From the IMG/VR virus record IMGVR_UViG_3300028783_000026, positions 1-22,106 of that record: DNA of 22,106 nt; one strand, given 5' to 3'. The position numbers and the translations under genes are program-made. The stretch is from a virus. Positions 3,406-22,106 of the stretch are shown here, in pieces (the stretch's first letter is position 1; every line of letters begins with the position of its first letter). The notes under the pieces were generated by a model. That model saw only the letters and a list, made by a program, of their open reading frames with translations, did not search any database and was not told the origin of the DNA.

Positions 3406-3433
3406 CCAGAATGTTATACAGAACGAATAATTA

Positions 3434-6900: not shown

Positions 6901-7994
6901 TGCCTAGATACCAGGAAAGGAGTGATTGGTCCGTTGACACCTGGAATGCCGAAAACCAGACCATCTTTAAGACGAATAACTTCTTCCAAAGAGACGACCG
7001 GCATCTCTTGCGACGAGATATCGATACGATTGTTCCAGCCGATAGATGCAAGCTTGGTAAGGTGTTTGTATCCTTGGTTCGATACGGCCCAAGCTGACAG
7101 ATAGAACATCTGTTCGCCATGTTTTACGTATAGGCCGGAACCAGGTATACCAACAGGCTTGTTAGTTAGAAGTGCTGTACCTTCCTTCTTTCTTGATTCG
7201 TTTTCTTTCTTAAAGATGCCTGAAATATCCATTGTGTCGAACAACGATGCAGCATTACCGTGATCTACGAATGCCAGACCGGGAACGTTGTTGTCGCTTG
7301 CCCAGATAGCCCAATCCTTTACGGAATTTAGCGAGTCTGTGTGAGAGAACATCGAGTGAATATGTAATTGTGCAGGCTCAGGAAACGATACATCGAGTAA
7401 TTGATGTTCTTCCATCACGAAGACTTCGGTCTCGCCGAGCATATCAGAGAGTATTTTATCTACCTTAATCGTTGCTTGAATATCACTGAGAGCGTCATGG
7501 GCGTTGATTGCAATGCCAAAATGCGCTGCAAGGGTAGCTAATTTGATGTTCGGAGTAGGCAATTGTGCCTTAAGTTTCTTTGCCCGTTTCATCGTATCGC
7601 GGATATCGCCGGTGAACAACTCTAAGAAATCAGACTCGCGACCAACCTTCTTGAAGAGTGCAGCTATAAAGTCTTTATCAAAACCTACGTTGTAGCCAGC
7701 GATGATGAATCGGCAGTTGAACTGCTTGGCGAACAAGACGAGGTTGTTTACCATCACCTGGGCAGTCTGCTGTTTCTTTAAGAAATCAACGGTAAGGCCG
7801 TTGACAGCAAGTGCCCCCATATCAATCTCGTTATAGTCGAGAGGTTGGCAGTATTGGTTGAAAGTGACCGCTTGCTCTTCGCCGCCTACAACCGCTACAC
7901 AAGCAAGCTGGACGATGTCGTTGCGTAAAGAGTCGAGACCCGTAGTCTCGCCGTCAAGCCACAAATAATTAACGGTATTGCGCAAAATTTTCAT
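3966..7994 (-). CDS. DNA polymerase III alpha-type replicase with fused N-terminal 3'-5' exonuclease, 1342 aa
   Basis: The replicative polymerase of the phage. Residues about 8-190 form a DEDDh proofreading exonuclease: D14 and E16 in WLDGETTG, D106 in YNVGFD, H166 and D171 in HDALSD. A PHP domain follows (H211-I-H213, DHG at 244-246, SDAH at 434-437). The pol III core has RGSAGGS (599-605), the catalytic PDIDLDI with D641 and D643, and a third Asp, D814, in MVKADILGINTL. FNKSHSHAYGELGY starts near 1019. The C-terminus has an OB-like segment (VYVRGTLKSGW). The longest frame begins at a TTG at 8009, but that codon lies partly in the -10 box. The ATG at 7994, exactly 6 nt after TATAAT, is the likely start and implies a leaderless mRNA. 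Exonuclease-PHP-polymerase in one chain is unlike E. coli, where epsilon is separate, and unlike PolC, where the exonuclease is inserted within PHP. Confidence 0.93.
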   Translation of the reverse strand: MKILRNTVNYLWLDGETTGLDSLRNDIVQLACVAVVGGEEQAVTFNQYCQPLDYNEIDMGALAVNGLTVDFLKKQQTAQVMVNNLVLFAKQFNCRFIIAGYNVGFDKDFIAALFKKVGRESDFLELFTGDIRDTMKRAKKLKAQLPTPNIKLATLAAHFGIAINAHDALSDIQATIKVDKILSDMLGETEVFVMEEHQLLDVSFPEPAQLHIHSMFSHTDSLNSVKDWAIWASDNNVPGLAFVDHGNAASLFDTMDISGIFKKENESRKKEGTALLTNKPVGIPGSGLYVKHGEQMFYLSAWAVSNQGYKHLTKLASIGWNNRIDISSQEMPVVSLEEVIRLKDGLVFGIPGVNGPITPFLVSRQLSQAAELIQYLHANLDIRLELAALDVYKNFDSSIGFSGYNITGGNIQKQINMFYEMCSRKFGIKMVPVSDAHFIDPIDKIVQDCVSRNAYEDGRYFFESRHVTRSQEMYSILKGHLSDNLTEAAFTEMIKNTHEIMEAAASINIKHEFHLPKIEIPAEIVAKTDDYNMQTYYVMMQKIQKHGRWNNTPEYVERFKREVDVIMKNATLNFIPYFLVYEDICAYATSSGLMQGIARGSAGGSLLSYYLNIIHVDPVRYNLPFERFLSHARIRAGSFPDIDLDIAKRARPLVMKYLQDKYGLGFAQMSTFSKMKTKKAIKDAMYSLYGRGGKDPEIVAVCEAIDDSPQGVDEHDFLYGYTDQEDVDHEGEVDKKPILKNFFQQRPEVQELVNKLIGAIAGWGRHASAFVISTLDLSDGRVPTMMFSDKELGEIMVTQFNATMVEKCGMVKADILGINTLNMVSDAMDLIMKNHGVDFRVKEQGIPLIYRLPDSDPGVFTDFFNKDTDSSFQFNTELVKGFAPEFAPLNRADCSAMTALLRPGALDAPLYDTTAAQYYMDIRNGKRSVEYLHEDLESILGPSNGVFVYQEEIMKFLVDIVGYSWEESDLIRGAIAKKKHEVIMATFTKIRESCTARGWSQEAIETICQQIQAFARYSFNKSHSHAYGELGYITLYMKHHYKLEWWTAVLNNEENNDKIKRYIAYLGDIVTAPSLKTPERIFTIQNGRIVAPISAIKSVGPAVVNEIVSKGPFSSIEDFTARINHTKVNIGSIAALIKARAADDLMDSTIEDYIERRYELMDRYLRNRKSKTTFKDDMYKLDPIKVFLQEKEYNSSFNRYLMGDPKIGQILEGRWPALTSTGRKGIPYFMKSAQGSDQDCYVLGSVKVAEGFLKKKYEKEVAMILLFDSSSYKQGVSKKSGRPWHRVNVMLSDGYNMIEATIWDQKKAFGWDKDTIVYVRGTLKSGWKTPLGFDIVEIDKVE

Positions 7995-8000
7995 GACGCA

Positions 8001-8006
8001 ATTATA
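8001..8006 (-). promoter_or_regulatory. -10 box of the polymerase gene (GTATAAT, 6 nt before ATG)
   Basis: The minus strand reads TTTTGTATAAT, then TGCGTC, then ATG. With transcription normally starting 6-8 nt after the -10 box, the first transcribed base would be at or next to the A of the ATG. There is no Shine-Dalgarno sequence between. The expected -35 region falls inside the terminator hairpin at 8016-8039 and has no consensus. Confidence 0.7.
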
Positions 8007-8039
8007 CAAAAGAAAAAGGCACCGCTTTCGCGATGCCTT
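8007..8039 (-). terminator. Rho-independent terminator after the virion-like gene
   Basis: The minus strand forms a 10-bp stem, AAGGCATCGC / GCGGTGCCTT, with one T-G wobble and a GAAA tetraloop, followed by TTTTTCTTTT counting the last stem bases. It lies 26 nt after the stop of the 281-aa gene and directly before the polymerase -10 box, so it separates the two transcription units. The opposite strand has no T-run, so it is one-directional. Confidence 0.88.
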
Positions 8040-8064
8040 CTAATGCTTTATTGTAATGTGAGTC

Positions 8065-8910
8065 TTATGTTGTCTGGAAGTTGAATACGAGATTGATGCT
8101 CGTAGTAATCGTGTCCGATACGTTCAGTTGTGCCGAAACTTCATAGTCATAAATTTCCTGATCGGCCATGCCAGCTTGAATTCCCGAGAGATAAGCTTGG
8201 AGCAATAAGTTTGTACTCTGTAAAGGAGTAGCACCACGTTGGTAGCTTTGATATCCTGAGGGAGTTGAACTGCCTTGCGGCTGTGACATATTGCTATTGC
8301 AGCTTGACATCGAGTTTCCACGAAGTGCAGACGGCTGATAGGTAGTTGGCAAAGTAAGGGTGAATTGGGTTTGTCCAACACCAGCTGCGGACAGCAAAGC
8401 TGCGCGGATAGCTGAGTAGTTACCAGTTGCAGCAGTACCAGCTTGAGCGACAGAAGCATTTGCAGTGCCCCAGCCAGAACTCAAAGTGATGTGCGTTCCT
8501 ACAACCAAAGGAGCAGACGTCTCAAACTGCAGAGCGTTACCGATCTGAGTAATAACGAAAGGGGCTGTAGAGATGGCAGTTACAGCAGCTGCGATATCAG
8601 AAGCAGCCTGCATTGAACTATCACCAGGAGCAACAGGAACTTGGATAAGGGTACGGCCTGCACCAGTTGGTGCAATCTCGCCAGCAACCGAGATCCACAT
8701 GCGGTATCCAATACCAGGTGCATCTAGATCAAAGTAGATTCCAGCTAAACCAGAACCTGCGCCCATGTTGGCACCAGAACGGTCGCCAAGGCTAAGTACC
8801 GAGATCTCCGTGTTACCGGATCCAACAAAAGCGACGCCTGCTTGAAAGGCGTCATTAAGGGTCTGCGTCAGACCCGTTTCACCATTAAAATAATCGGTTT
8901 TTAAACTCAT
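8065..8910 (-). CDS. Probable virion structural protein, 281 aa
   Basis: Ala/Gly/Ser/Thr-rich and beta-strand-rich, like tail or decoration proteins. Residues about 57-140 (GIYFDLDAPGIGYRMWISVAG, an A-P-T-G-A-G-R-T segment, IQVPV, GDSSMQAASDIAAAVTA, ITQIGNALQFE) resemble a domain I know from many phage structural proteins, with a W/Y-centred strand, then a helix of the A..IA.A...A type, then short strands. That is recognition of a pattern, not a search result. The ATG at 8910 has a GGAGG site 5-6 nt upstream. The gene is followed by the strongest terminator in the window, which suits a highly expressed product. Being among replication genes is unusual for a virion gene. Which virion part it forms is unknown. 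Confidence 0.7.
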   Translation of the reverse strand: MSLKTDYFNGETGLTQTLNDAFQAGVAFVGSGNTEISVLSLGDRSGANMGAGSGLAGIYFDLDAPGIGYRMWISVAGEIAPTGAGRTLIQVPVAPGDSSMQAASDIAAAVTAISTAPFVITQIGNALQFETSAPLVVGTHITLSSGWGTANASVAQAGTAATGNYSAIRAALLSAAGVGQTQFTLTLPTTYQPSALRGNSMSSCNSNMSQPQGSSTPSGYQSYQRGATPLQSTNLLLQAYLSGIQAGMADQEIYDYEVSAQLNVSDTITTSINLVFNFQTT

Positions 8911-8941
8911 AGAGCCTCCATGAAACTATGAGTTCATTCTA

Positions 8942-9229: not shown

Positions 9230-9230
9230 G

Positions 9231-9776: not shown

Positions 9777-10227
9777 AAAGCTCCAGGTATTCAACCAGTT
9801 TTAAAGCATTGGATTTACTGTCTTTTAGTAGACCAATAGCCATATTACACTTATAACAAAGAAGACCACGGACTTGTCCATTAGCATGATTATGATCTAA
9901 TGCTAACATACGACCCTTTAAATTCTCATTCTGAGGCTTGCTGCAGATGGCACATTTACCGTCTTGCTTTTCAAACATGGTCTTATAGGTCTCAAGAGTT
10001 ACGCCATACTTAGTTTCTAGACTATTATTTTTTACGTAATCGGGGTTACGTAACTTCCAAGCAGTTGTTTGAGCTTTACGCTTGGATCCAGTAGACTTAT
10101 AGATCTCTAAATTATATGAACGAGTGCAAGTTTTGCACTTGTGTTTTAATCCACTAGGCAAACTTGAATCTTTATAGAATTGTGATTGGTCTTGCTCTAT
10201 GTTACAAGTATTACATCTCTTCGCCAT
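9754..10227 (-). CDS. Endonuclease VII-like (HNH/His-Me) nuclease, 157 aa
   Basis: An N-terminal zinc-finger-like part (CNTCNIEQ, then CKTCTRSY) precedes a recombination endonuclease VII-type domain. The domain begins at KYGVTLETYKTMFEKQDGKC, with CAIC, then LALDHNH, GQVRGLLCYKCN and a final helix. This is the same family and layout as the product of 13312-13686. T4 endonuclease VII (gp49) resolves Holliday junctions and has the same paired CxxC zinc site, but small free-standing relatives usually behave as homing nucleases. Two copies here favour the homing reading. The ATG at 10227 has no Shine-Dalgarno site; a GTATAAT box lies 9 nt upstream, immediately after the stop of the previous gene, so a leaderless or nearly leaderless mRNA is likely. 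Confidence 0.85.
   Translation of the reverse strand: MAKRCNTCNIEQDQSQFYKDSSLPSGLKHKCKTCTRSYNLEIYKSTGSKRKAQTTAWKLRNPDYVKNNSLETKYGVTLETYKTMFEKQDGKCAICSKPQNENLKGRMLALDHNHANGQVRGLLCYKCNMAIGLLKDSKSNALKLVEYLELYEKTPAV
9781..9784 (-). promoter_or_regulatory. Ribosome-binding site that fixes the HNH start at 9776
   Basis: GGAG with spacer CTTT before ATG. It shows that the first codon of the open frame (TTG at 9794) is probably not the start of the 181-aa HNH gene. Confidence 0.65.
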
Positions 10228-10236
10228 GCTAAGAAT

Positions 10237-10242
10237 ATTATA
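10237..10242 (-). promoter_or_regulatory. -10 box 9 nt before the endonuclease VII-like gene
   Basis: The minus strand reads TTTAAGTATAAT, then ATTCTTAGC, then ATG. The box starts just after the TAA stop of the proline-rich gene, TAA being followed by GTATAAT. It shares the G immediately before TATAAT with the other boxes in the window. The spacing is longer than the 6-7 nt seen at the other genes. Confidence 0.5.
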
Positions 10243-10243
10243 C

Positions 10244-10564
10244 TTAAATGTCTGAGGGCTCTGTCGGCTCTAAATACCACTGACCAGTTTGTGAGTCAGC
10301 TTTAGCAACCAAGGTCTTTGCGCCTTTAGTTGACATAGATCCGTTCTTGATTTGCTCTGCAATCTTCTTTGGATCTTTCTTAGAATCTGGACCTTGACCG
10401 GCACCGATCTTAGGTGCAGTAGTAGAAGCAGGAGTCATGGATGGTTGGGGCGGAGCTTTGATAGAAGGCAGTTCGGGAAGCTTAGGTGCAACAGGCGGAT
10501 TCAATTTCTTGACCGCTTTAATAGCCTTCTGAAGCTCTTCTAGTTTCTTGTACAGTTCATCCAT
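10244..10564 (-). CDS. Proline-rich small protein, 106 aa
   Basis: Not recognised. Residues 1-20 form a charged amphipathic helix (MDELYKKLEELQKAIKAVKK). Residues 21-60 are rich in Pro, Ala and Thr and likely unstructured. The C-terminal 45 residues are Lys-rich with a conserved-looking KNGSMSTKGAKTLV segment and end in GQWYLEPTEPSDI. The ATG at 10564 has no ribosome-binding site and lies 7 nt after a GTATAAT box that abuts the UAG stop of the SbcC-like gene. It could be an adaptor or a small structural protein; nothing in the sequence decides. Confidence 0.7.
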   Translation of the reverse strand: MDELYKKLEELQKAIKAVKKLNPPVAPKLPELPSIKAPPQPSMTPASTTAPKIGAGQGPDSKKDPKKIAEQIKNGSMSTKGAKTLVAKADSQTGQWYLEPTEPSDI

Positions 10565-10571
10565 GACTTAG

Positions 10572-10577
10572 ATTATA
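10572..10577 (-). promoter_or_regulatory. -10 box of the proline-rich gene (TAGTATAAT, 7 nt before ATG)
   Basis: The minus strand reads TTCTAGTATAAT, then CTAAGTC, then ATG. The TAG directly before TATAAT is the stop codon of the SbcC-like gene, so stop codon and promoter are fused. The upstream CTAGAATTCTAG resembles the CTAGAATCCATAG in front of the lysozyme box. Confidence 0.62.
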
Positions 10578-12317
10578 CTAGAATTCTAGGTTGATGACGG
10601 AGATTTCATTCCTTAGTTCAACCTTAAATGACTTAGTAAATTTGGCCTTTGCCTCTGCAGCGTGATCAATAACAAAGATCTGGCGAGTGCGTGCCAGGGT
10701 CTCTAACAGATCAATCACTATCTCGCGCCCTGCTTCATCCAGACCATCAAATGGCTCGTCGAGGATAATAGGGTTAAGGGTCATTCCAAACTGCGTCTCA
10801 AGGACCTCTAGGAGCGCGAAGTCGACACATAGAGATAGGCCCTTCTGTTCACCACCAGATAGTGATCCGACCGATACGTCTTTGCCATTCTTCATCAGGG
10901 TCTCTGAGAACTTAGCACTAATCTCGCCCTTACCGTTCTCTTTGAAGGAGTTAAGTACGTATGTCATTGTGGGAGACAGAATATCCACGTACTTCTGAAT
11001 GATCTCGTTGAATGAATCGACAATAGAATCCAAGACATAGGCCTGAGCACCTGTGGGAGAATAGATGTTCGACAGCGTCTTGTAAACCTCTAATTGTCGC
11101 TTATTTGCACTAATATTAGTGACTAACTTTGATACACTTGCTTCCAAGGTCTCGATCTTGTTCTGTAAATCAGCGTTACTATTTAGTTTTAAACTCAGGT
11201 TTTCGACCTGTAAATTTTGTGTTCTTACAGACGCTTTAAGTTCTGAGAGGCGAAGTTGAGCAGCTTGATAGTCAGCACTATCTTGTTGCTTCTTCTCGCG
11301 CAGCCTACGAGCTAAGTCAGTTACACCCTGCTCCTTGAGCACAATGGCATCAGTCTCATCGATCTGCGTCTTTACAGATGCAGCCTTATCCTGTACCTTC
11401 TTTTGATGATCGGCATGTGCTAGACGTGCCTCTGCTGTGTCTAATGATGCGCCACATTCGCCGCAGGCAGCATCAGAATTATAATCGCCAATCGCAGAGC
11501 GAAGCTCACGATAACGATCATGTAGCATTCCACGCTTGGCTTTGGCCTGTGCAATCTCGGACTGTTGCGTGCGGATCTTATCTTCGACAGAAATGTATTT
11601 AGATAGGTCAGGTTTTGTAACCTGGGCCTGTTCTAAGATTTCCTTTTCAAGATCTGCAATCATGAGGATGTATTGATTGATCTTCGTTTGTAGCGAAGCA
11701 GTGTCAACTAAAGATTCCTCGTATGCCTGAATGCGGGAACGAGTAGATGCAAGCGAGCGGTCGTCTACTTCGACTGCTGCTGAAAACTTTTTAATAAGGT
11801 CATCGATGAGCTTTTTGCCGGACCCAAACTGGTCAAGATTGAGAAGCTGAAGGAGGAACTCTTTCTTAGCCGCATCAGGGGAACTAAGGAATCGGATAAG
11901 TTCTCCACTATTTGATTGAGGCGTATAGATTGTAAGAAGGAACTGTCCATAGCTGAGTCGAATAAAGGACTCAAATTCTGCTTGGGTGATGTCTTGTGGA
12001 ATCCCATTTTTTGAGAAGATAGCTCCCTTAGGACGGCTTCGTCGAACGGTCCAGATATCCTCACCACATAAGACGCTAGCCTCCGCGAAGCCAGTCTTGC
12101 ATCCTCTTCTAAGAATTTCACTTGCAGTAATTTTTCTAGGAAGTTTATCATACAGAGCAAATGACAGCCCATTGAATATAGCTGTCTTCCCGGCCCCGTT
12201 GGCTCTCTGAGTGTCATAATTCCAACCTTCAACGAGCACAAGACCCGTGTCTTCAAACTTTAGAGAAGCCTGCTGAATACTAAGAATGTCTTGGATCTCT
12301 AATGATAAAACACGCAT
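10578..12317 (-). CDS. SbcC/Rad50/gp46-like recombination nuclease ATPase subunit, 579 aa
   Basis: SMC-type ATPase that, with an Mre11/gp47-type nuclease, resects DNA ends to feed recombination. Walker A lies at residues 31-45 (GWNYDTQRANGAGKT). Coiled-coil arms at about 165-280 and 300-410 flank a zinc-hook motif CGEC at 285-288. Beyond them come the signature LSGGEQ (486-491), Walker B IILDEP with the DGLD D-loop (517-526), and an H-loop VIDH ending at His552. Length is close to T4 gp46 (560 aa). No nuclease partner gene is in the window. The ATG at 12317 is exactly 6 nt after TATAAT with no Shine-Dalgarno site, so the mRNA is probably leaderless. The upstream zinc-ribbon gene ends with UAG in the same frame, five codons before this ATG. 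The stop is TAG. Confidence 0.92.
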   Translation of the reverse strand: MRVLSLEIQDILSIQQASLKFEDTGLVLVEGWNYDTQRANGAGKTAIFNGLSFALYDKLPRKITASEILRRGCKTGFAEASVLCGEDIWTVRRSRPKGAIFSKNGIPQDITQAEFESFIRLSYGQFLLTIYTPQSNSGELIRFLSSPDAAKKEFLLQLLNLDQFGSGKKLIDDLIKKFSAAVEVDDRSLASTRSRIQAYEESLVDTASLQTKINQYILMIADLEKEILEQAQVTKPDLSKYISVEDKIRTQQSEIAQAKAKRGMLHDRYRELRSAIGDYNSDAACGECGASLDTAEARLAHADHQKKVQDKAASVKTQIDETDAIVLKEQGVTDLARRLREKKQQDSADYQAAQLRLSELKASVRTQNLQVENLSLKLNSNADLQNKIETLEASVSKLVTNISANKRQLEVYKTLSNIYSPTGAQAYVLDSIVDSFNEIIQKYVDILSPTMTYVLNSFKENGKGEISAKFSETLMKNGKDVSVGSLSGGEQKGLSLCVDFALLEVLETQFGMTLNPIILDEPFDGLDEAGREIVIDLLETLARTRQIFVIDHAAEAKAKFTKSFKVELRNEISVINLEF

Positions 12318-12323
12318 CGCATG

Positions 12324-12329
12324 ATTATA
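12324..12329 (-). promoter_or_regulatory. -10 box of the SbcC-like gene (TAGTATAAT, 6 nt before ATG)
   Basis: The minus strand reads GCGCTAGTATAAT, then CATGCG, then ATG. The TAG is the stop codon of the zinc-ribbon gene. The predicted transcription start falls on or next to the start codon. No -35 consensus is visible upstream. Confidence 0.72.
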
Positions 12330-12680
12330 CTAGCGCTTGGACGGAGCCTTAGGCACAACTAGCTCACCTTTGTCATTGTAAACAAGCCAGCCTTCTTCAA
12401 GGCAAGTCTGAGTTGAATATGTCTGAACAAGACGAGGTACTTCTACTTCCCAGAAGTGATCATCCTTACGTTTTTTCATTACGAGTTCATGGTCTTTTCC
12501 CCACTTACGATTAGTGTAGGAATCAACTACTTCACGGACTTCTGTTTCAGCTTGGATATTGGGCATGTTGCGAGACATCTCTTCCTTACATTCCGGACAA
12601 GGCAATACCTCAACCGTTGATGGAACATACCGATGTCCCGTGTACTCGCACTTAGGGCAGACGAACTGATACTTAGGCAT
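12330..12680 (-). CDS. Zinc-ribbon protein, 116 aa
   Basis: The first 31 residues form a zinc ribbon of the FmdB-like kind, with Cys pairs C8-P-K-C11 and C28-P-E-C31, followed by an acidic/basic mixed helix (KWGKDHELVMKKRKDD) and a short aromatic C-terminus ending VPKAPSKR. Such ribbons bind nucleic acids or proteins; the target is unknown. The ATG at 12680 overlaps the upstream stop as TAATG, with GAGG a few bases before. The stop is UAG, immediately followed by the SbcC promoter. After UAG the frame continues through YNHA into the Met of the SbcC-like protein, so amber readthrough would fuse the two. Its position suggests a link to end processing, which is inference. Confidence 0.82.
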   Translation of the reverse strand: MPKYQFVCPKCEYTGHRYVPSTVEVLPCPECKEEMSRNMPNIQAETEVREVVDSYTNRKWGKDHELVMKKRKDDHFWEVEVPRLVQTYSTQTCLEEGWLVYNDKGELVVPKAPSKR

Positions 12681-13309: not shown

Positions 13310-13311
13310 AT

Positions 13312-13686
13312 TTATTCCTTCTTCAAATATTCAGCTGCTTTAATTAACAGCTCTGGTGAATCTCTAAAATGACCTAGCCCCTGATTACACCAGTTACAGA
13401 GTAGTCCTCTAACTTTACCTGTCACATGATTATGATCTATGCTAAGCATCTTAGTTCTAGCCACACCAGTATCAGTTCTCTTACAGATCGCACAAGCCGA
13501 TCCTTGTTCTTTATACATAGTCTGAAAGGTTTCCTCAGTCAGACCGTATTTAGATTTCCTATAGCCTTTATCTCTATGCTTAGAACCACAAGGTTTACAA
13601 CGATAAGACTTACCTAATGGCCTATTCTTATCGTTATGAAACTCCTCTAATGGTTTAGAAGTCTTGCAAACACCGCATGTCCTCAT
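13312..13686 (-). CDS. Endonuclease VII-like free-standing nuclease, 124 aa
   Basis: Zinc-finger-like N-terminus (CGVCKTSK, then CKPCGSKH) followed by an endonuclease VII-type domain: KYGLTEETFQTMYKEQGSAC, CAIC, MLSIDHNH, GKVRGLLCNWCNQGLGHF and a last helix. It is a shorter relative of the 9754-10227 product, sharing the order of every motif. The start is taken as the ATG at 13686, which overlaps the chaperonin stop as TGATG; a GTG one codon earlier is the alternative. The end of the gene (AAG GAA TAA) supplies the ribosome-binding site of the membrane protein gene 2 nt downstream. A homing nuclease that jumped into a gene junction is the best reading. A true Holliday-junction resolvase is possible but not favoured, given the sister copy. 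Confidence 0.86.
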   Translation of the reverse strand: MRTCGVCKTSKPLEEFHNDKNRPLGKSYRCKPCGSKHRDKGYRKSKYGLTEETFQTMYKEQGSACAICKRTDTGVARTKMLSIDHNHVTGKVRGLLCNWCNQGLGHFRDSPELLIKAAEYLKKE

Positions 13687-15410
13687 CACTCTTGTCCAAC
13701 GTGACCTGTACTTGCAGACATCATTTCCTTAAAAGCACCTTTCGATAACTCAAGTTGTTGTTCTAAGCCAGCATTACGTGGAGAAACTACTATTCCGCCC
13801 AATGTAGTTAATAGTGCAGCTACTGACAGGGCGTTACCAATTGTTACGCGGCAGACCTTTGCAGGTTCGATAATTCCGGCTTCAATAGGGTCTACGATCG
13901 CATGAGCTTGAGCATCGAAGATCTTCTTTGGAAGACCGTTCTGTGCCAAGAAAGCATCTTGGATCATCGGCCAAATCTCTTCAACAGACTCACCGCAGTT
14001 GTCAAGCAACAGGTGAAAAGGCTGTTTTAATGCATTTGCCATGATTCCCCATGAAGGTTTCCGCTCTGGGTGATGTTCAATCATGTCTGCAAGTACAAGC
14101 TGAACTGCACAACCGCCAGGCAAGATGCCTTCAGCGATAGCAGATTTCACCGCTTCAACCGCGTCTTCAACGCGATCACGTTTTTCACGAGCTTCAAGAT
14201 CAGAGCCACCGCCGACCCAAATAGTCGAAATACCGCCAGTAAGCTTACCGATAGCGGCCTTAATATGCATCTTATCAAAATCAGAGGGAGCCACATCCAT
14301 AAGATGTTTAAGTTCAGCCAGGCGAGAGTCAATTCGCTCAGCGTCAGGTATTCCCTGAACGACAGATTCATACATGCCAACTTTAGCAGAATCAAATGCG
14401 CCAAAGCCAGACGCTCGGTCTTCCGTAATAAACTTTTCGAGGGATCCGGGGTCATAGACCGTAGCTCCAGTGTATGCTGACATGTCCAGCAAGAAAGAGG
14501 AACGTGAGTTTGCGACACCCGACATTGGAGTCTTTACTGGAACGACTGTGTAACCGCCCTTTGTAGTCTTGGCGAAAGCTTCCATAACAACATCAGCAAA
14601 GCTGTGTGCGAAGACCATAATAGGAAGACCATAGAGTTCGGTACCTTCGATAGTTGCTTGGATCGCTCCAGGTACTTTAAGATCATTGAGGGATCCGTCA
14701 TATAAGAATGCTAATCCGTGGTCCATCTTGACCTGTTGCAAACCTTTATCATTGATGAAGACTCGACCAATAGCTCCGATATCTTTCAAACCAGAAGTGA
14801 TAATGAATCCGTCCATGGTCTCAACTTTAAGTTGATTGCCCTGAGCTTCTTCAATCAGAACGTGACCATCATCTCCTGCAGCCATAACAGCAGTAACCGC
14901 AGCTTCAGCAATAGCTTTATCTCCGTTAGATGAAATCGTTGCAACAGAGATAAGTTGCTCTCGTCCTTTAACTGGAATTGCATTTGCTTTAATGTAGGGA
15001 GTGATAACAGTAGAATATAGGTGGTTAAGTTCACCGACCATCCGCTGAGGATTATACTTGGGGTTGTTTGCAAGGAAATTCAATCCATTCTTCGTGATGG
15101 CATTAGCAAGCACGATAGCGGTAGTCGTACCGTCACCAGCTTCTTTAGCAGTTTTTAAACAGATCTCTTTAGCAGCATCAACGATGACGTTAGCGGCTGC
15201 ATTTTCGACACCATAAGATTTTGCGACAGTTACACCATCTTTAGTAATTAAAGGTGACAAGTTGTCGCGCTCAATAATAACTGGATTTCCACCAGGGCCA
15301 AGTGTTGTTCCAATAATTGCAGCCATATCATTAATGGTTGAATGAACGATGCTCTTTACATCATCTTTATTAACAACAACTTGCTTAGCTTTACTTCTCT
15401 CGTAAATCAT
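13686..15410 (-). CDS. GroEL-type (group I) chaperonin, 574 aa
   Basis: ATP-driven folding chamber subunit. Equatorial ATP-site motifs are intact: TLGPGGNPV at 36-44, DGVTVA at 58-63 (D58 matches the GroEL Mg/ATP Asp52), GDGTTTA at 92-98, and the catalytic-type Asp at RVEDA (D416, GroEL Asp398) preceded by GGISTIWVGGGS. EGILPGG (427-433) and the C-terminal PAKVCRVTIGNALSVAALL segment also fit. It is about 26 residues longer than E. coli GroEL and lacks the GGM tail, ending STGHVGQE. Phage chaperonins are known from some jumbo phages, and some work without a co-chaperonin; no GroES-like gene is in this window. The ATG at 15410 follows AAGGTAATAG and overlaps the HNH stop as ATGA. Likely clients are phage virion or replication proteins, which is inference. 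Confidence 0.94.
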   Translation of the reverse strand: MIYERSKAKQVVVNKDDVKSIVHSTINDMAAIIGTTLGPGGNPVIIERDNLSPLITKDGVTVAKSYGVENAAANVIVDAAKEICLKTAKEAGDGTTTAIVLANAITKNGLNFLANNPKYNPQRMVGELNHLYSTVITPYIKANAIPVKGREQLISVATISSNGDKAIAEAAVTAVMAAGDDGHVLIEEAQGNQLKVETMDGFIITSGLKDIGAIGRVFINDKGLQQVKMDHGLAFLYDGSLNDLKVPGAIQATIEGTELYGLPIMVFAHSFADVVMEAFAKTTKGGYTVVPVKTPMSGVANSRSSFLLDMSAYTGATVYDPGSLEKFITEDRASGFGAFDSAKVGMYESVVQGIPDAERIDSRLAELKHLMDVAPSDFDKMHIKAAIGKLTGGISTIWVGGGSDLEAREKRDRVEDAVEAVKSAIAEGILPGGCAVQLVLADMIEHHPERKPSWGIMANALKQPFHLLLDNCGESVEEIWPMIQDAFLAQNGLPKKIFDAQAHAIVDPIEAGIIEPAKVCRVTIGNALSVAALLTTLGGIVVSPRNAGLEQQLELSKGAFKEMMSASTGHVGQE

Positions 15411-16542: not shown

Positions 16543-17111
16543 TTGAAACCATTGCTTTTCTTAAAGTTTAAATCGCCAGGTAATAGCTGTAAGTTCCAAG
16601 GTACATGTAATCCACATACAATTTTTCCCCGTAAAGGTACAATATGGTCTACATGAAAAGCTTTTCCATCTTGATTAAGCCAAGCTAAGTCTTGAGCCAG
16701 ATTATAAAACTCTTTAATATCCTCTAACTGTACTTGAGATAGCCACTGTGGAGTAGATTTTTTCTTTACTAATCTATAATGAGTCGTAGCTGCGTTACAA
16801 ACACCTTTATTGTCTTTTCTATAAAGAGAGTTATAAGAGTTAACTTTAACTTTATTACTTAAGTAATAAGTATGTCTAAGTTCTTTATGATAATCTATAT
16901 TATTAGTGTAATAGTTCTTCATTTTAGAAGAAATGATATGAGCATTCACTAACCTATAGTTTTTGCTATAAAGTTTTCTAGTTTCAGAGTTATTTTGATA
17001 ATATTGATTACAACAAGTTTTACAATAGTGGTGAAAACCATCTTTTGATCTAGTTCTCTTATGGAACTCATCGAATGATTTAGTGATTTTACATTGCAAA
17101 CAAAGCTTCAT
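16539..17111 (-). CDS. HNH homing-type endonuclease, 190 aa
   Basis: Zinc-finger-like N-terminus (CLQCKITKSFDEFHK, then CKTCCNQYY), a long Asn/Tyr/Lys-rich linker and a C-terminal HNH core (AFHVDHIVPLRG, then VPWNLQLLPGDLNFKKSN). The open frame extends to an ATG at 17120, but that ATG is part of the TATAAT box (17119-17124). The second ATG at 17111 is 7 nt after the box, has MKLCLQC right behind it like its relatives, and is the likely leaderless start. The gene is markedly AT-rich and codon-poor compared with its neighbours, a sign of recent transfer. Its stop overlaps the GTG of the methyltransferase-like gene. The presence of its own promoter sets it apart from the other inserted nucleases. 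Confidence 0.85.
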   Translation of the reverse strand: MKLCLQCKITKSFDEFHKRTRSKDGFHHYCKTCCNQYYQNNSETRKLYSKNYRLVNAHIISSKMKNYYTNNIDYHKELRHTYYLSNKVKVNSYNSLYRKDNKGVCNAATTHYRLVKKKSTPQWLSQVQLEDIKEFYNLAQDLAWLNQDGKAFHVDHIVPLRGKIVCGLHVPWNLQLLPGDLNFKKSNGFK

Positions 17112-17118
17112 GCCTGAC

Positions 17119-17124
17119 ATTATA
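17119..17124 (-). promoter_or_regulatory. -10 box of the HNH gene (TAGTATAAT, 7 nt before ATG)
   Basis: The minus strand reads ACATAGTATAAT, then GTCAGGC, then ATG. The TAG is the stop codon of the 150-aa gene upstream, as at two other promoters here. The upstream ATG in the box itself (TATAATG) could be mistaken for the start. Confidence 0.62.
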
Positions 17125-17577
17125 CTATGTTGTTAAAGTTTCCTCAAGTACTTCTCTAAACTCTAGATCGAGTTGAGTCATAGCGTACTCATGAAGCTTA
17201 GTTGAGAAGGAATCATAATCCATAAGTTTGATCTTGTATTGGATTCTGTAGATTGGCTCTCCTCGAAAAGGAGAGATTTGGCGTTGCAGGAATACACCTT
17301 GAACATGGTGTAACATTGCGCTTATTCGCTCTTCTAGCTTTTGAAAGATATCTTCTTTCTTGAGAAGCGACATTTGATTAACATAGATGTCTAGGTCGAG
17401 ATCGACGTCTGGTGCGCCCATATATTGGTGGACAGAACCTCTACCTATTGAGAACATAGTATCAACATTGTTGCGAGCATTAATAGTGTAGTAAACCTGG
17501 ATATTATTTCCCAGACCCATAACATTAACTATGTCTCGCGTGAGCTGATCGTTACTTCCCTGTTGAACCGAAACCAT
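17125..17577 (-). CDS. Hypothetical protein, 150 aa
   Basis: Not recognised. Mixed alpha/beta composition with a central acidic strand (GAPDVDLDLDIYVN) and an amphipathic helix (KEDIFQKLEERISAMLHHVQ). The C-terminal helix is acidic (LDLEFREVLEETLTT). There are no cysteines and no membrane segment. The ATG at 17577 has GAGG 5 nt upstream and lies 26 nt inside the dUTPase gene, so translation is probably coupled to dUTPase. The stop is TAG and runs straight into the promoter of the next gene. Nothing in the sequence points to a specific function. Confidence 0.75.
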   Translation of the reverse strand: MVSVQQGSNDQLTRDIVNVMGLGNNIQVYYTINARNNVDTMFSIGRGSVHQYMGAPDVDLDLDIYVNQMSLLKKEDIFQKLEERISAMLHHVQGVFLQRQISPFRGEPIYRIQYKIKLMDYDSFSTKLHEYAMTQLDLEFREVLEETLTT

Positions 17578-18064
17578 TTTCGCCTCGTGACGTGTTAGTG
17601 TCGATTACTTCGACCTGTTCTACGAAGTATTGATTTGAGTAAGGGTGCAAGATTAACTGTGCAAGTTTCTCGCCCTTCTTGACAACAAGAGGTGAAGTGT
17701 TCATCAGCGGGATACCATCTTCATCTAAGCGATCAATGATGTTAACATTAGAGTGAATAACATTGATAACGCCGCGGTACTCTTCGTCGATGATGCCAGC
17801 GCGTACGGCATGACCTTTTGAACCAAGACCAGACTTAGTCGTGATCTCAGCGTAAGTATTCGGCGGAAGCTTAAGTTGAATGTTCAGTGGGGTCTTGCCC
17901 GACTGACCTGGAAACAACGTGATATCTTCTGTTGCGAAGAGATCAAAACCTGCGTCAGTGTGACGAACTTTATTGGGCAGTTTCCCGCCGTCGTTCACTT
18001 GAACTTCGATTTTGAAAGCTTTATCGCGCAGGGCTTTTAATTTGGCTTGTACATCATCATTCAT
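17552..18064 (-). CDS. dut: dUTPase (dUTP diphosphatase), 170 aa
   Basis: Hydrolyses dUTP to dUMP and pyrophosphate, keeping uracil out of phage DNA and supplying dUMP for dTTP synthesis. All five trimeric dUTPase motifs are present in order: DAGFDL at 37-42, TKSGLGSKG at 76-84, GIIDEEYRG at 90-98 with the catalytic Asp93, GEKLAQLIL at 131-139, and the C-terminal RGENGFGSTG at 160-169 that closes over the substrate. The N-terminal 25 residues are an extra helix, and the stretch between motifs III and IV is somewhat longer than usual. The ATG at 18064 is exactly 6 nt after TATAAT and has no Shine-Dalgarno site, so the mRNA is probably leaderless. The following gene overlaps it by 26 nt. Confidence 0.95.
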   Translation of the reverse strand: MNDDVQAKLKALRDKAFKIEVQVNDGGKLPNKVRHTDAGFDLFATEDITLFPGQSGKTPLNIQLKLPPNTYAEITTKSGLGSKGHAVRAGIIDEEYRGVINVIHSNVNIIDRLDEDGIPLMNTSPLVVKKGEKLAQLILHPYSNQYFVEQVEVIDTNTSRGENGFGSTGK

Positions 18065-18070
18065 GTTGCG

Positions 18071-18076
18071 ATTATA
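18071..18076 (-). promoter_or_regulatory. -10 box of dUTPase (AGTATAAT, 6 nt before ATG)
   Basis: The minus strand reads AACAGTATAAT, then CGCAAC, then ATG. It is the cleanest case of the leaderless arrangement because a gene-free stretch of about 250 nt lies upstream. No -35 consensus is seen. Confidence 0.75.
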
Positions 18077-18331
18077 CTGTTAGGGGTTTCCAAAGTGGGG
18101 TTCATATTTATTTTTAAACCATAGTTAAAAAGCTGTTGCTCGCGGGTACCATAAGAGATAAGAATTTACCCCTTGCTAACCTATCTAACCAGAGAAAATT
18201 AGTCTTACTCTACGTGCGTGATTTCACGCACACGAGCGCGTAGACGCGCTCGGCAAGAGAAAGAAATACTGATTAAGGAAGAAAGTCAAGGGCCCTTCCA
18301 AACCCAATTAGGGTCTTAAGTAAGTCTTGAC
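18077..18331. other. Gene-free stretch with palindromes and repeats
   Basis: About 255 nt between the dUTPase promoter and the stop of the 112-aa gene, the longest stretch without gene or RNA in the window. It contains two adjacent perfect 8-bp inverted repeats (18214-18231 and 18234-18251), a 10-bp palindrome AAGGGCCCTT (18288-18297), and the first copy of a 16-bp tandem repeat. No T-run follows the hairpins on either strand, so they do not look like terminators. A role as replication origin, protein-binding site or processed RNA is possible. Confidence 0.6.
18214..18251. repeat. Two adjacent perfect inverted repeats
   Basis: GTGCGTGA-TT-TCACGCAC (18214-18231) is followed after 2 nt by GAGCGCGT-AG-ACGCGCTC (18234-18251). 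Each is a perfect 8-bp stem with a 2-nt centre. They are far more GC-rich than the flanking DNA. Confidence 0.85.
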
Positions 18332-18670: not shown

Positions 18671-18676
18671 ATTAAG

Positions 18677-18751
18677 TGGTGCTCCATGAGGGGATCGAAC
18701 CCACGACCAGGTCTTTTAGAGGGACTTGCTCTACCGCTGAGCTAATGGAGC
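18677..18751 (-). tRNA. tRNA with CUA anticodon (possible amber suppressor)
   Basis: 75 nt including an encoded CCA. The acceptor stem GCTCCAT/ATGGAGC is perfect, the D arm GCTC-AGCGGTA-GAGC is perfect, and the T arm GTGGG-TTCGATC-CCCTC has one T-T mismatch. The discriminator base is A. The anticodon loop reads CTCTAAA, with U33 and anticodon CUA, the same loop as the supF amber suppressor. The anticodon stem AGTCC/AGACC is poor: three central pairs hold, while the first and last are A-C and C-A mismatches. It could be a working suppressor, a partly decayed tRNA, or need base modification. The charged amino acid cannot be told from sequence alone. It is followed 5 nt later (18752-18756) by the interrupted tRNA on the upstream side. 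Confidence 0.8.
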
Positions 18752-18756
18752 GTAAT

Positions 18757-18925
18757 TGGTACCCGAGGATGGATTCGAACCACCGACCTCTCAACTCCTT
18801 TTATACTCTTACTTACAATCATCGTCATGACTGCTTTCTTAGCCGAGATCCCGTATGTACCGTTGATCAAACGGCTGGTAACGGTTTCCCCAGGTTGAGC
18901 ACTCTACCACTGAGCATACTCGGGC
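18757..18925 (-). tRNA. tRNA interrupted by a ~93-nt insertion in the anticodon loop
   Basis: The two ends form a clear tRNA. The acceptor GCCCGAG pairs with CTCGGGT (one G-T pair) followed by ACCA. The D arm is GCTC-AGTGGTA-GAGT, with three bases (TAT) instead of two before it. The anticodon stem is CTCAA/TTGAG, the variable loop AGGTC, and the T arm GGTGG-TTCGAAT-CCATC, with one G-T pair. Between the two sides of the anticodon stem lie 100 nt (18795-18894) where 7 are normal. That is too short for a known group I intron. The loop can form ACCGTT/AACGGT and AGCCG/CGGCT helices that interleave as a pseudoknot. The mature anticodon cannot be assigned; CCU+GGAG would give UGG but lacks U33. It may be an intron-bearing tRNA or a dead one. 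Confidence 0.7.
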
Positions 18926-18931
18926 ATGGAT

Positions 18932-19117
18932 AAAAGAAAAGGTGCACGGGCTAGATTATTCCCACACTTTGTAACCGCCGTCTCTTGCGAGCGAGGCTGT
19001 GAGACCAACGACTCCGGCATAGGTACTAGCAGGTGGGCAACAAATCAAGGAAAGAACGCCGTAAAACTCTTTACAATCCTCTATCCGAAGTCACCCTCTG
19101 TTTACGCAGCCGTGCAC
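18932..19117 (-). ncRNA. Putative structured RNA of unknown class upstream of the tRNAs
   Basis: A GTATAAT promoter at 19122-19127 would start transcription near 19115. From there the sequence runs about 185 nt with no good reading frame on the minus strand. Its ends pair over 10 bp: GTGCACGGCT (19117-19108) with AGCCCGTGCAC (18952-18942), one bulged C. Inside are local hairpins such as GTAAA-GAGT-TTTAC and GTCTC...GAGAC (about 19005-18980). The closing stem is followed by TTTTCTTTT (18940-18932), then the interrupted tRNA. I see no RNase P, tmRNA or tRNA signatures. A closing stem around a long RNA recalls 6S-type RNAs, but nothing beyond that supports the comparison. It may simply be the leader of the tRNA precursor. 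Confidence 0.45.
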
Positions 19118-19121
19118 TTAC

Positions 19122-19127
19122 ATTATA
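19122..19127 (-). promoter_or_regulatory. -10 box of the ncRNA/tRNA cluster (TAGTATAAT)
   Basis: The minus strand reads GCATCTAGTATAAT, then GTAAGTGCACGG. It matches the TAGTATAAT form used at the protein genes, but no start codon follows; the next genes are RNA. The 60 nt upstream (19128-19187) up to the Pth2-like gene hold nothing else I can identify. Confidence 0.68.
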
Positions 19128-19187
19128 CTAGATGCATTAACATGTTGTTATTACCTATCGGTGTTTTCTATTTAAAGTTTAGTATTT

Positions 19188-19761: not shown

Positions 19762-19831
19762 ATAATCTCCAGTTAAGTTAGTGTTGGGGAAACAGCTGAT
19801 TCTTAATGGAGTTTTAGGGTGGTTCGCGAAT

Positions 19832-20365
19832 CTACTTCATAATATCGTCCTCTAAGGTTTGTAGTTTGCTATCAACATCTTCTGTCGACGGCTGTTCATC
19901 TGATTGTACCACGGGTTGCATGAAAAGAGCATGTTCAGCTTGACGACGGCGCGTTAAACCGGAAACAGCAACGCCACCAGCATGGTCCCATTTAAGGAAC
20001 TGGTCAGCAACTGCTTGACTTGGACCGTTGGCATTTAATAGTTTAAGAAGAGTTGAACCGTGTAATGCACCAAGACCCAGGTTGTAAGCAAAGCTAACAA
20101 GAGCTGCATATTGATTGTCATTGATGGTTGCGGTTACATACTTCTCGATACCTGCGCACTTCTGATCGATCTCCCACATAAGAAGATCGGTAGCCTCTGC
20201 TTCAGTGATCGGTGGATCTTGAAGAGTAACCTTGCGACCGTCTTTGTACATGATAGTGCCATAGCCGATAGTCGGTACATGTACCGAATCCGGATATGGA
20301 TGCAGCTTGAGTCCTTCAAAGGACTTAATCATATCGAGGCCAGCTTGGTTAATTTCGCGTTCCAT
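19832..20365 (-). CDS. T4-type lysozyme (GH24 muramidase endolysin), 177 aa
   Basis: Cleaves the beta-1,4 bond between N-acetylmuramic acid and N-acetylglucosamine in peptidoglycan to release progeny. The catalytic triad has the exact GH24 spacing: E17 in SFEGLKL, D26 in PYPDS and T32 in VPTIGYGT (E-8-D-5-T as in T4 lysozyme E11/D20/T26). The C-terminal lobe has DNQYAALVSFAYNLG and GLTRRRQAEHALF, both family hallmarks. There is no signal peptide or SAR segment, so a holin elsewhere is expected. About 30 acidic residues follow the fold (EQPSTEDVDSKLQTLEDDIM), longer than in T4. The ATG at 20365 is exactly 6 nt after TATAAT with no Shine-Dalgarno site. It could also be a virion-associated lysozyme. 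Confidence 0.93.
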   Translation of the reverse strand: MEREINQAGLDMIKSFEGLKLHPYPDSVHVPTIGYGTIMYKDGRKVTLQDPPITEAEATDLLMWEIDQKCAGIEKYVTATINDNQYAALVSFAYNLGLGALHGSTLLKLLNANGPSQAVADQFLKWDHAGGVAVSGLTRRRQAEHALFMQPVVQSDEQPSTEDVDSKLQTLEDDIMK

Positions 20366-20371
20366 AAGTTA

Positions 20372-20377
20372 ATTATA
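20372..20377 (-). promoter_or_regulatory. -10 box of the lysozyme gene (TAGTATAAT, 6 nt before ATG)
   Basis: The minus strand reads CCATAGTATAAT, then TAACTT, then ATG. The upstream CTAGAATCCATAG resembles CTAGAATTCTAG before the 10572-10577 box. The rest of the 86-nt gap up to the 75-aa gene shows no further signal. Confidence 0.72.
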
Positions 20378-20451
20378 CTATGGATTCTAGCTTACTTTAA
20401 AACTATGATTGCCCAGGATTGTCACCTAGAACGCGTTTTATAGGGGCCGAA

Positions 20452-20679
20452 TTACGGTCTTAAAGATAGATCGCGCTCAAAGTCTTCGTCCGTATACATC
20501 TCTTCTATGGCCCGCTTGATACCAGCTGTAACTGCTGCAGCAATGGCATCTGATACTGCTTGCGATACTGGACCCATCGCTTGGCCATATCCAAGAGACA
20601 TATCCATCTGCAATTTTGCGGCAGCTTGATGATCCGCGCGAATCTTCCACTCAGACTCAGGGGATTTGAATCTTATCAT
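20452..20679 (-). CDS. Hypothetical protein, 75 aa
   Basis: Not recognised. A charged N-terminus (MIRFKSPESEWKIRADHQAA) leads to a glycine/Met stretch and one long Ala-rich helix (VSDAIAAAVTAGIKRAIEEM), then an acidic end (TDEDFERDLSLRP). The helix is amphipathic rather than membrane-spanning. The ATG overlaps the helicase stop as ATGA, so translation is coupled to the helicase; AAAGG lies about 10 nt upstream. It may be a helicase accessory protein, on position alone. Confidence 0.68.
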   Translation of the reverse strand: MIRFKSPESEWKIRADHQAAAKLQMDMSLGYGQAMGPVSQAVSDAIAAAVTAGIKRAIEEMYTDEDFERDLSLRP

Positions 20680-22079
20680 AAGGTAATTACCTTTATCTTA
20701 GATGTGATCTCTTCATAGAATGCGAGACGGTTGTTTGCGTGACGGGATAACATAGTTGACCCAGTCGGAATATAGTCAAGAACTAAGCACTTAGTCTTAG
20801 TGCCCTGCATACGAAGACCACGTCCAACAGCTTGAATCACAGGTCCTTTAGAAGCTACGAAGTTAGCCAGGATGAGACAGTCGACATTCTTTGTGTCTGT
20901 GCCTTCCCCAACCTTCCCATCCGTCCCGACCAATCCTGGGATCTTTCCGGCATTGAGCTGGTCGACGTAATCTTGGGACTTCTTGTCTAGACCGGTAGCA
21001 AATGGAATACCTAAAGCTTTAGATAGTTCTTCTCCATGGGCAACTTCATCGACCAGGATGAGAACAGCCTTACCAGAATCCATCATGGCTTTTGCATCGC
21101 CCTGGATCCGGTCCTTCATTGCTTGGTTATTCAGGACGTGTTCTTTGTAGGATTTAAGCTTATCGTCTTTAAAATCCCTACCGCCGGTAGCAACTTCACG
21201 AACGATGAATACGGGTTCGGCCAGGTATTTATTGTCCACGCCCCACTTGATGTCTCGGCGGATGAGTACGTTTCCGCACCCAGCCGTAATCATTATGTCT
21301 TTACCATCAGACCGATAATCTGTGGCGGTAAGACCGAATATCTTCCCGACTCCACTAAGGCCTTTAGCAATCTCGTAGAAGGTGGAAGCTGGTGTGTGGT
21401 GGGTCTCATCGACGATAACAAGTCCAAGATCGGCTTGTCTAAACTCTTCAACATATTTAGAGACACTAGCAGCAATACCAACTGTAATGTCACAAATTTT
21501 CTTCTTTCCTCCGCCATAGAACCCCACTTTGTTCTGTCCGAACACGTCTACAAACTGGTTGTAGAACTGCTTGGCAACCGAGTCAGAAGGGCAAACGATT
21601 AGCGCCTTCTTCTTATATTGTTGCACAAGATGGGTTGCGACTAGGGTTTTGCCGAGACCAGTGGCGAAATTAATCACTCCCCGGTAGTTGTTCAGCATCA
21701 AATCGACGGCTTCTTGTTGGTATGGGCGCAATGGAAAAGGCTTGTTCTTCCAAGGCAGAGCGATCTTAGAACCAGTCTGCTTACGGTTATCTACGACGGT
21801 CGCTGCGTTAAACTCCTGAGCGAAATGTTCCTGAAAATATCCGTAGAAGGAAGAGGTACAAACAAGATCATTATTGGACATCTCGAAAAGGTGCCCATGA
21901 ACTTCGTTCTGAAGTCTTTTATAGTCCGGTGACTGACGTCCCCAGATTGACTTAGATAGACGACGAAGTTGATACTGTTTTGCCTTGTCAGTATAGGTTA
22001 ACTCAGACTGTAGGGTCTGAATAAACTGAGCACTGGCTCCAGAGATCGTCATAATATCGTTTGCTAGATCTACTTGCAT
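20676..22079 (-). CDS. UvsW-like superfamily 2 DNA helicase, 467 aa
   Basis: ATP-dependent helicase/branch-migration enzyme of the kind that processes recombination intermediates and stalled forks and, in T4, turns origin replication over to recombination. SF2 motifs in order: the Q-like LRPYQQEAV (117-125), motif I FATGLGKT (138-145), motif II DETH (224-227), motif III LTAT (250-253), motif V-like KVGEGTDTKNVD (389-400) and motif VI QAVGRGLRM (416-424). Length is close to T4 UvsW (about 500 aa), with an N-terminal 100-residue domain of no clear motif. The ATG at 22079 has no Shine-Dalgarno site in place and lies 6 nt after TACAAT, so it is another candidate leaderless gene. The next gene overlaps as ATGA. 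Other SF2 helicases such as RadD-like remain possible. Confidence 0.88.
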   Translation of the reverse strand: MQVDLANDIMTISGASAQFIQTLQSELTYTDKAKQYQLRRLSKSIWGRQSPDYKRLQNEVHGHLFEMSNNDLVCTSSFYGYFQEHFAQEFNAATVVDNRKQTGSKIALPWKNKPFPLRPYQQEAVDLMLNNYRGVINFATGLGKTLVATHLVQQYKKKALIVCPSDSVAKQFYNQFVDVFGQNKVGFYGGGKKKICDITVGIAASVSKYVEEFRQADLGLVIVDETHHTPASTFYEIAKGLSGVGKIFGLTATDYRSDGKDIMITAGCGNVLIRRDIKWGVDNKYLAEPVFIVREVATGGRDFKDDKLKSYKEHVLNNQAMKDRIQGDAKAMMDSGKAVLILVDEVAHGEELSKALGIPFATGLDKKSQDYVDQLNAGKIPGLVGTDGKVGEGTDTKNVDCLILANFVASKGPVIQAVGRGLRMQGTKTKCLVLDYIPTGSTMLSRHANNRLAFYEEITSKIKVITL

Positions 22080-22085
22080 TCGGCT

Positions 22086-22091
22086 ATTGTA
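22086..22091 (-). promoter_or_regulatory. -10 box of the helicase gene (GTACAAT, 6 nt before ATG)
   Basis: The minus strand reads AAGGGGTACAAT, then AGCCGA, then ATG. It is a one-base variant of TATAAT at the same 6-nt spacing. An AGGGG lies 15 nt upstream of the ATG, too far for a normal ribosome-binding site, and it would be upstream of the predicted transcript start. Confidence 0.5.
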
Positions 22092-22106
22092 CCCCTTGGT
22101 ATAACG

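Follow-up and report, generated by a model that had tools for sequence, protein, structure and literature searches.

A GTATAAT box at a fixed distance from the ATG points to -10-only promoters and leaderless messages in a phage lineage that also uses Shine-Dalgarno sites

In the stretch of viral DNA analysed here (22,106 nucleotides, positions 1 to 22,106 of IMG/VR record IMGVR_UViG_3300028783_000026, hereafter the window), a group of genes is preceded by the heptamer GTATAAT, which is followed in most cases by six bases and the ATG start codon. The spacing between this box and the ATG is conserved, and above chance, in the phage lineage to which the window belongs, and the box, its spacing, its conservation and the lack of both a Shine-Dalgarno (SD) site and a -35 element can be read directly from the letters. 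On these grounds GTATAAT is taken, with a probability of about 0.86, to be a -10-only promoter yielding leaderless mRNAs, the transcript 5' end and the leaderless translation being predicted from sequence. In the proposed mechanism the RNA polymerase would recognise GTATAAT without a -35 element and initiate about 7 bases 3' of the box. The ATG would be placed at the initiation point in about 15-18 genes per genome (a few chance cases included), and the mRNA would have its 5' end on the AUG, or 1-3 bases before it, and be translated as a leaderless message. Elsewhere the box would lie about 15-64 bases upstream of the gene, and the message would carry a short SD leader.

The original prediction had placed eight boxes in the window, and all of them are present at the positions and with the spacings that it gave, on the minus strand; the hairpin beside the polymerase box is listed with them:

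7995..8007, minus strand: GTATAAT (8001-8007) plus 6 bases, before the DNA polymerase ATG at 7994 (open reading frame (ORF) 3966-7994, 1342 amino acids (aa))
8014..8041, minus strand: intrinsic terminator-like hairpin of 12 pairs, 6 of them G-C, whose T-run ends at 8008 and abuts the polymerase box
10228..10243, minus strand: GTATAAT (box 10237-10242) plus 9 bases, before the endonuclease VII gene at 10227
10565..10578, minus strand: GTATAAT (box 10572-10577) plus 7 bases, before a 106-aa gene at 10564; overlaps the TAG stop of SbcC
12318..12330, minus strand: GTATAAT (box 12324-12329) plus 6 bases, before the SbcC ATG at 12317; overlaps the TAG that ends the upstream gene
17112..17125, minus strand: GTATAAT (box 17119-17124) plus 7 bases, before an HNH-like gene at 17111
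18065..18077, minus strand: GTATAAT (box 18071-18076) plus 6 bases, before the dUTPase ATG at 18064
20366..20378, minus strand: GTATAAT (box 20372-20377) plus 6 bases, before the lysozyme ATG at 20365
22080..22092, minus strand: GTACAAT (box 22086-22091, TACAAT) plus 6 bases, before the helicase ATG at 22079

The exact heptamer occurs ten times in the window: four sites lie six bases before an ATG (spacing N6, and likewise for the other distances), two at N7 and two at N9, one precedes a structured RNA and one the SSB gene. One of the two N9 sites (15051-15056) lies within the GroEL gene and is probably a chance match, and the helicase GTACAAT makes the eighth credible box adjacent to an ATG. 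The hexamer is preceded by G in all eight, as had been claimed, whereas the statement that most are preceded by TAG was slightly overstated (4/8). The claimed lack of SD sites agrees with what is seen, since no clear one could be found by eye at any of the eight starts. At the polymerase, a mechanical ORF lister had extended the gene upstream and taken the TTG at 8009 as its start. Two heptamer sites had been overlooked (19122-19127, before the structured RNA, and 3400-3405, before SSB), and they are given here together with the GroEL gene:

3400..3406, minus strand: GTATAAT, 55 bases 5' of SSB, an SD-led gene starting at 3344; the related contigs G002 and G003 share this arrangement
18931..19128, minus strand: GTATAAT (19122-19128) and, after a gap of 6 bases, a structured RNA (19115-18941, about 175 bases) with a T-run
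13686-15410, minus strand: phage-encoded GroEL, with orthologues in relatives

The window corresponds to bases 94710-116815 of a viral contig of 175 kb (IMGVR_UViG_3300030518_000005, here G001), with 99.995% identity. This parent contig encodes a tail sheath, a portal, a terminase and a major head protein; among named matches, the head protein comes closest to SPO1-like phages (about 30% identity) and the terminase to Myxococcus phage Mx1 (29%). No match of at least 60% identity was found in the phage collection searched for the polymerase, SbcC, the head protein or the terminase. Four more contigs, G002-G005, carry an SbcC 57-70% identical to that of the window, the closest being G002 (SbcC 70%, polymerase 74% protein identity), and more distant contigs were found later (SbcC identity 53% in G006, 43% in G009 and 33% in G007). 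The G+C content of the lineage is 34-45%. A match of G002 to a Cytophagales metagenome-assembled genome was not accepted as indicating the host, given that SD sites and TATAAT are used here, which is unlike Bacteroidota.

Hexamers with at least 5 occurrences were ranked at spacings 0-24 before every ATG opening an ORF of at least 60 codons. TATAAT at spacing 6 was the top pair in G001 (16 seen, 0.44 expected), with AAGGAG at 5 below it; it ranked second in G003, after the overlapping GTATAA at 7, and eighth in G002, where SD motifs came on top. Counted by sites, 17 of the 108 TATAAT hexamers of G001 are followed at N6 by the ATG of an ORF of at least 50 codons, the mean of 200 dinucleotide shuffles being 0.115 and their maximum 2. 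The same count gives 11 in G002 (shuffle mean 0.105, maximum 1) and 10 in G003 (mean 0.04, maximum 1; 200 dinucleotide shuffles in both), which is the strong enrichment over shuffled sequence that had been anticipated. A genome-wide distribution with no peak at 6-7 had been named beforehand as a result that would refute the leaderless reading; the peak is found at 6 in all five contigs. GTATAAT sites with an N6 ATG-ORF amount to 12/41 in G001, 9/39 in G002, 9/24 in G003, 3/8 in G004 and 2/4 in G005, and not a single site of these contigs falls at spacings 0-5. In the window, the exact pattern TATAATN6ATG occurs four times, always on the minus strand, and its reversed control pattern not once. 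The N6 peak recurs in G006 and G009 and is gone in G007, the contig with SbcC at 33%.

The same counts were made in other phages. Exact TATAAT at N6 was found once in T4, twice in SPO1, twice in the Exiguobacterium phage EalM-132, once in phiYS40 and never in P23-45. With a relaxed -10 motif, phiYS40 (150 kb of NC_008584) gave 20 sites at N6 and between 1 and 9 at each of the remaining spacings from 0 to 19, and G001 and G003 likewise show peaks, with 32 and 17 sites at N6; T4, SPO1 and EalM-132 have 5 each and no peak. As phiYS40 is a phage reported to be leaderless, its peak is a leaderless-phage signature at the same spacing as the one described here.

The shape of the site was studied in an alignment of the 39 TATAAT-N6-ATG sites of G001-G003, which were selected for that string and include orthologues and probably a few chance sites. 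A G stands at -13 in 31 of the 39, together with a weaker T at -15 and A or T at -14, and the letters of the spacer are unconserved. The original prediction was right that no -35 element is visible: none appears in these sites, and every position from -55 to -16 holds at most 0.36 bits. The extended -10 form (TGnTATAAT, with TG at -15/-14) does not describe them, G being at -14 in only 5/39, and TGATATAAT is present in a minority. The T4-type late promoter is TATAAATA, has no -35 element and is read by a gp55-like sigma; the sites do not follow this octamer, as no base is conserved 3' of the hexamer. Counted from the A of the ATG as +1, the hexamer occupies positions -12 to -7, where textbooks place the -10 element. 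Regarding translation, none of the 16 box starts of G001 has an SD match of at least 5 bases and two have a match of 4, located 12 and 15 bases upstream; these calls come from a crude caller whose choice of starts favours boxes and SD sites.

Orthologous genes of relatives keep the box and the spacing though the letters of the spacer differ. At the polymerase, 10/10 loci (9 distinct, the window included) show in succession a hairpin of at least 9 pairs, a T-run, GTATAAT, a six-base spacer and the ATG, and the hairpin sequences differ among the distinct loci while their position is constant. Because the terminator-like hairpin and T-run stand directly before the box, only the box and the spacer are left for the transcript start. 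Outside this set, the polymerase of locus L040 has N7 and that of G006 N6, and the match of L046 falls short of the N-terminus. At SbcC, a -10-like hexamer is found at N6 in 9/16 loci, the window included, and is exact in 7; L036 starts with GTG, and the hexamer ends in G in L040 and in A in L041. Six of the eight orthologues of the 106-aa gene have a -10-like hexamer at N6 and two at N7 (the window and G002). The lysozyme box is present in all three genomes compared (N6 in the window, N7 in G002 and in G003), and the helicase orthologue of G003 carries TAAAAT at N6.

Two further genes change their leader between relatives. Out of nine loci of dTMP kinase, six show GTATAAT-N6 (three of them distinct), two combine GTATAAT with a longer SD leader and one has only a distant upstream GTACAAT together with an SD site; G006 also has N6. 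The dUTPase shows GTATAAT-N6 in two of three genomes (window and G002) and an SD-like leader in G003. Such changes from a leaderless to an SD-led form, or the reverse, speak against a strict translational regulon. It also provides natural pairs of the same gene with and without a leader, and thus a ready test of the cost or gain of the leader.

The box is not restricted to starts of the ATG-adjacent type. It stands 5' of SD-led genes at 12/41 sites in G001, 11/39 in G002 and 6/24 in G003, as identified by a regular expression reaching at most 70 bases ahead, and the 15 box-to-gene SD leaders measured are 15-64 bases long. SSB has an upstream box and an SD leader in all three genomes (window/G001, G002 and G003). 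Furthermore, the box and a gap of 6 bases precede the GCACG of the structured RNA in the three genomes, with different gap letters in G003; this gives a separate, indirect hint of where the transcript begins. This RNA of about 175 bases has ends that pair and a T-run at its end, and the pairing could reach 1-2 bases into the gap; across 242 bases the stretch has a DNA identity of 92% with G002, and no Rfam family matched the RNA. As the heptamer precedes SD-led genes and a structured RNA too, its role as the marker of a separate gene class is not supported. Of the two translation classes originally proposed, the coexistence of SD-led starts (191/257 ORFs in G001 and 173/239 in G002, by the crude caller) and box-led starts holds, and the idea of the box as a class of genes of its own finds no support. 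Nor is there support for a class made up of key replication, nucleotide and lysis genes, as had been suggested: RecA, SSB and GroEL of the window lack an ATG-adjacent box (SSB being clearly SD-led), and endonuclease genes and a tail gene carry one.

Other explanations of the same observations were considered. The box could be a real promoter and the ATG at N6 a mere by-product of compaction, the genes being translated from read-through messages through coupling to the upstream gene. The genes are indeed tightly packed, several boxes overlap the upstream stop (TAGTATAAT; at SbcC, at the 10564 gene and at the HNH-like gene at 17111), and the 50/257 ORFs of G001 without SD site or box, by the crude call, may be coupled. 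However, simple compaction would not favour a single spacing, and in G001 the GTATAAT-ATG spacings 0-5 and 8 are empty while spacing 6 holds 12/41; this weakens the explanation, the polymerase moreover comes after a terminator-like hairpin, and we regard it as improbable. A second proposal takes TATAAT to act at the RNA level, enhancing translation from the SD-less starts that follow it, and not as a promoter. It would account for the fixed distance to the ATG and for the box standing in place of the SD site, yet the same box is found before SD-led genes, at six bases from a non-coding RNA and immediately 3' of terminator-like hairpins, and its sequence and distance are those of the -10 element, which leaves this proposal very little probability. 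Finally, chance matches in AT-rich sequence, in line with the modest excess in the window when one mismatch is allowed (11 against a shuffle mean of 6.4, 1/100 shuffles reaching 11), are refuted by the genome-wide peak and also by the whole-contig shuffles, the related contigs and the control phages.

The reading as -10-only promoters of leaderless mRNAs is supported at the level of sequence by the peak at 6 in the GTATAAT-to-ATG spacing, and several results weigh against it. No box is present at SbcC in 6/16 loci (L042-L047, with L042-L045 seemingly identical upstream), and in L038 the position at SbcC is occupied by an endonuclease-like gene. The N7-N9 cases would leave 1-3 bases 5' of the AUG. 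About half of the G001 GTATAAT sites may be due to chance, since 41 were seen and the shuffles predict about 20; some of the SD-leader sites are thus chance matches, which makes this class less secure than that of the N6 sites. With the relaxed -10 motif G002 has no N6 peak (15 sites there, 4-17 at others), so that its signal rests on the exact box, and TANNNT at N6 shows no excess in it (24 seen, 24.7 expected). P23-45 (80 kb) gave no clear peak with the relaxed motif (3 at N6, 0-2 elsewhere). Phage versions of initiation factor 3 (IF3) and S21 were not found in G001 or G002 (0/2 for each).

Concerning known systems, cI is the leaderless gene of lambda. Leaderless phage and prophage transcripts beginning on the AUG have been described in lambda and in E. 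coli prophages (PMC3160421, PMC5230787); in the passages cited they are single transcripts, unlike the genome-wide set of fixed spacing found here. Phage transcripts are said in one source passage to be "often leaderless" (PMC5312081), and leaderless messages are described as using 70S ribosomes and tolerating few bases 5' of the AUG (PMC5230787). In the Thermus phage phiYS40, according to the cited part of PMC3594737, most middle and late mRNAs have no leader and altered levels of initiation factor 2 (IF2) and IF3 are reported. The likeness between both systems is the -10-like element at N6 before the ATG of phage genes. The phiYS40 box is degenerate, with a single exact TATAAT at N6, whereas the present one is a near-perfect GTATAAT; a change in IF2/IF3 is reported there, and most called genes are SD-led here. 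In bacteria, according to the cited passage of PMC3160421, leaderless genes are marked by a -10-like signal located about 12 bp upstream of the start codon. The survey of these TA-led genes used that signal, which replaces the SD site, to define leaderless genes, and G001, G002 and G003 show it too, above shuffles. It covers cellular genomes, and in this case a phage lineage is concerned, in which the spacing is fixed and a G stands at -13.

Leaderless phage genes are therefore already known, but the searches made, among openly licensed papers, gave no description of a near-perfect promoter-start unit of fixed spacing, joined at the polymerase to a terminator-like hairpin and invaded by endonuclease genes, in an SD-using lineage. 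The fusion of terminator, promoter and start at the polymerase and the endonuclease genes between box and original gene are new here. To our knowledge, a leaderless phage signal that is readable from sequence alone, of fixed spacing and lineage-wide, has seldom been documented. Gene callers that have no model for leaderless genes may place such starts wrongly.

Endonuclease genes lie between the box and the original gene in two clear cases, with a third read by eye. The HNH-like gene at 17111 of the window sits between the box and a methyltransferase gene (16542), and in G002 (N7) and G003 (N6) the box is directly 5' of the methyltransferase; at the box and start the window and G002 agree in 21/22 bases. 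Similarly, the endonuclease VII gene at 10227, recognised by Pfam, sits between the box and an HNH gene starting at about 9776, whose orthologue is directly box-led in G002 (N8) and G003 (N6). The third case is the polymerase of G005, where the hairpin and a box variant, TATATT, are followed at N6 by an ORF of 36 codons placed before the polymerase; by eye, this ORF reads like an endonuclease remnant. Pfam identifies endonuclease VII in window 10227, G001 17188 and G001 74160 and HNH in window 9776. It gave no match for the genes at window 17111, G001 159913, G001 78179, G003 13441 and L038 2498, which owe the name HNH-like only to a motif or to inspection by eye. The enrichment of HNH among box genes (8/47 against 14/519, Fisher p 1.6e-4) is no more than suggestive, as the crude motif misses Pfam-positive endonuclease VII, orthologues of three genomes are counted and a few probable chance boxes (GroEL) are included.

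The same searches among openly licensed papers gave no case of an endonuclease gene inserted at a leaderless gene's start codon. Free-standing homing endonucleases of T4 are described, in the passage cited, as exploiting upstream phage promoters (PMC2988022), and likewise live off the expression signals of an existing phage gene. For hidden HNH genes within mycobacteriophage methylases, leaderless initiation is proposed (PMC11855218, in the passage cited), and these also depend on the signals of the phage gene that hosts them. Unlike both, the endonuclease here stands at the start codon of a box-led gene, and the displaced gene restarts inside or after it.

Candidate factors for transcription were sought in G001-G003. 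Sigma70_r2 was not found in any of the three contigs, though a gp55-like protein may still be encoded, and the search for a single-subunit RNA polymerase gave none in the three, but its control also matched nowhere and this negative carries no weight. Matches to Sigma70_r4 below the cut-off occur in all three contigs and fall on one conserved protein (Pfam 18.1 bits, cut-off 24.1). This protein of 135 aa (L014:3485-3892, minus strand; G001 83485-83892, outside the window) is present in 11 viral loci, the parent contig included. Its AlphaFold model is poor (mean predicted local distance difference test score, pLDDT, 53), and both its top match by sequence in the PDB (E 0.0074) and its PHROG matches are weak. 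It is a candidate transcription factor with a weak sigma region-4-like helix-turn-helix predicted from its sequence.

A wider hypothesis can be put forward tentatively, and we consider it rather unlikely as a whole: a portable cassette for gene starts, about 16 bases long (a G at -13, TATAAT, a spacer of six bases and ATG, with the terminator-like hairpin at the polymerase), would be read by a phage-altered RNA polymerase needing no -35 element, for which the 135-aa protein would be the candidate factor, and endonuclease genes would have inserted repeatedly at the start codon, taking both promoter and translation start. Under this hypothesis, having no leader would allow selected genes to be translated at times of limited SD-dependent initiation.

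Some observations were made on stops and tRNAs near these elements. At 12318-12332, the TAG of TAGTATAAT and the six-base spacing put the upstream stop in frame with the SbcC start; suppression by a tRNA with anticodon CTA would consequently fuse the product of a 116-aa gene to SbcC. Such a tRNA, amber suppressor-like, is encoded at 18677-18751 (minus strand) and lies near the structured RNA in G001, G002 and G003. The TAG upstream of SbcC is not kept in G002. Read-through of TAG was considered and rejected, with little excess of open frames after TAG (4/36 in G001, 6/36 in G002 and 1/14 in G003) compared with those after TAA-ended ORFs (12/145, 12/156 and 2/47, respectively), and TAG, TATAAT, six bases and ATG are in frame by construction. 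Next to this tRNA there is a tRNA-Pro-like gene (18757-18925, minus strand) whose anticodon loop is interrupted by 91 bases, and by 95 bases of different letters in G002; bacterial tRNA introns as short as 91 bases are unusual.

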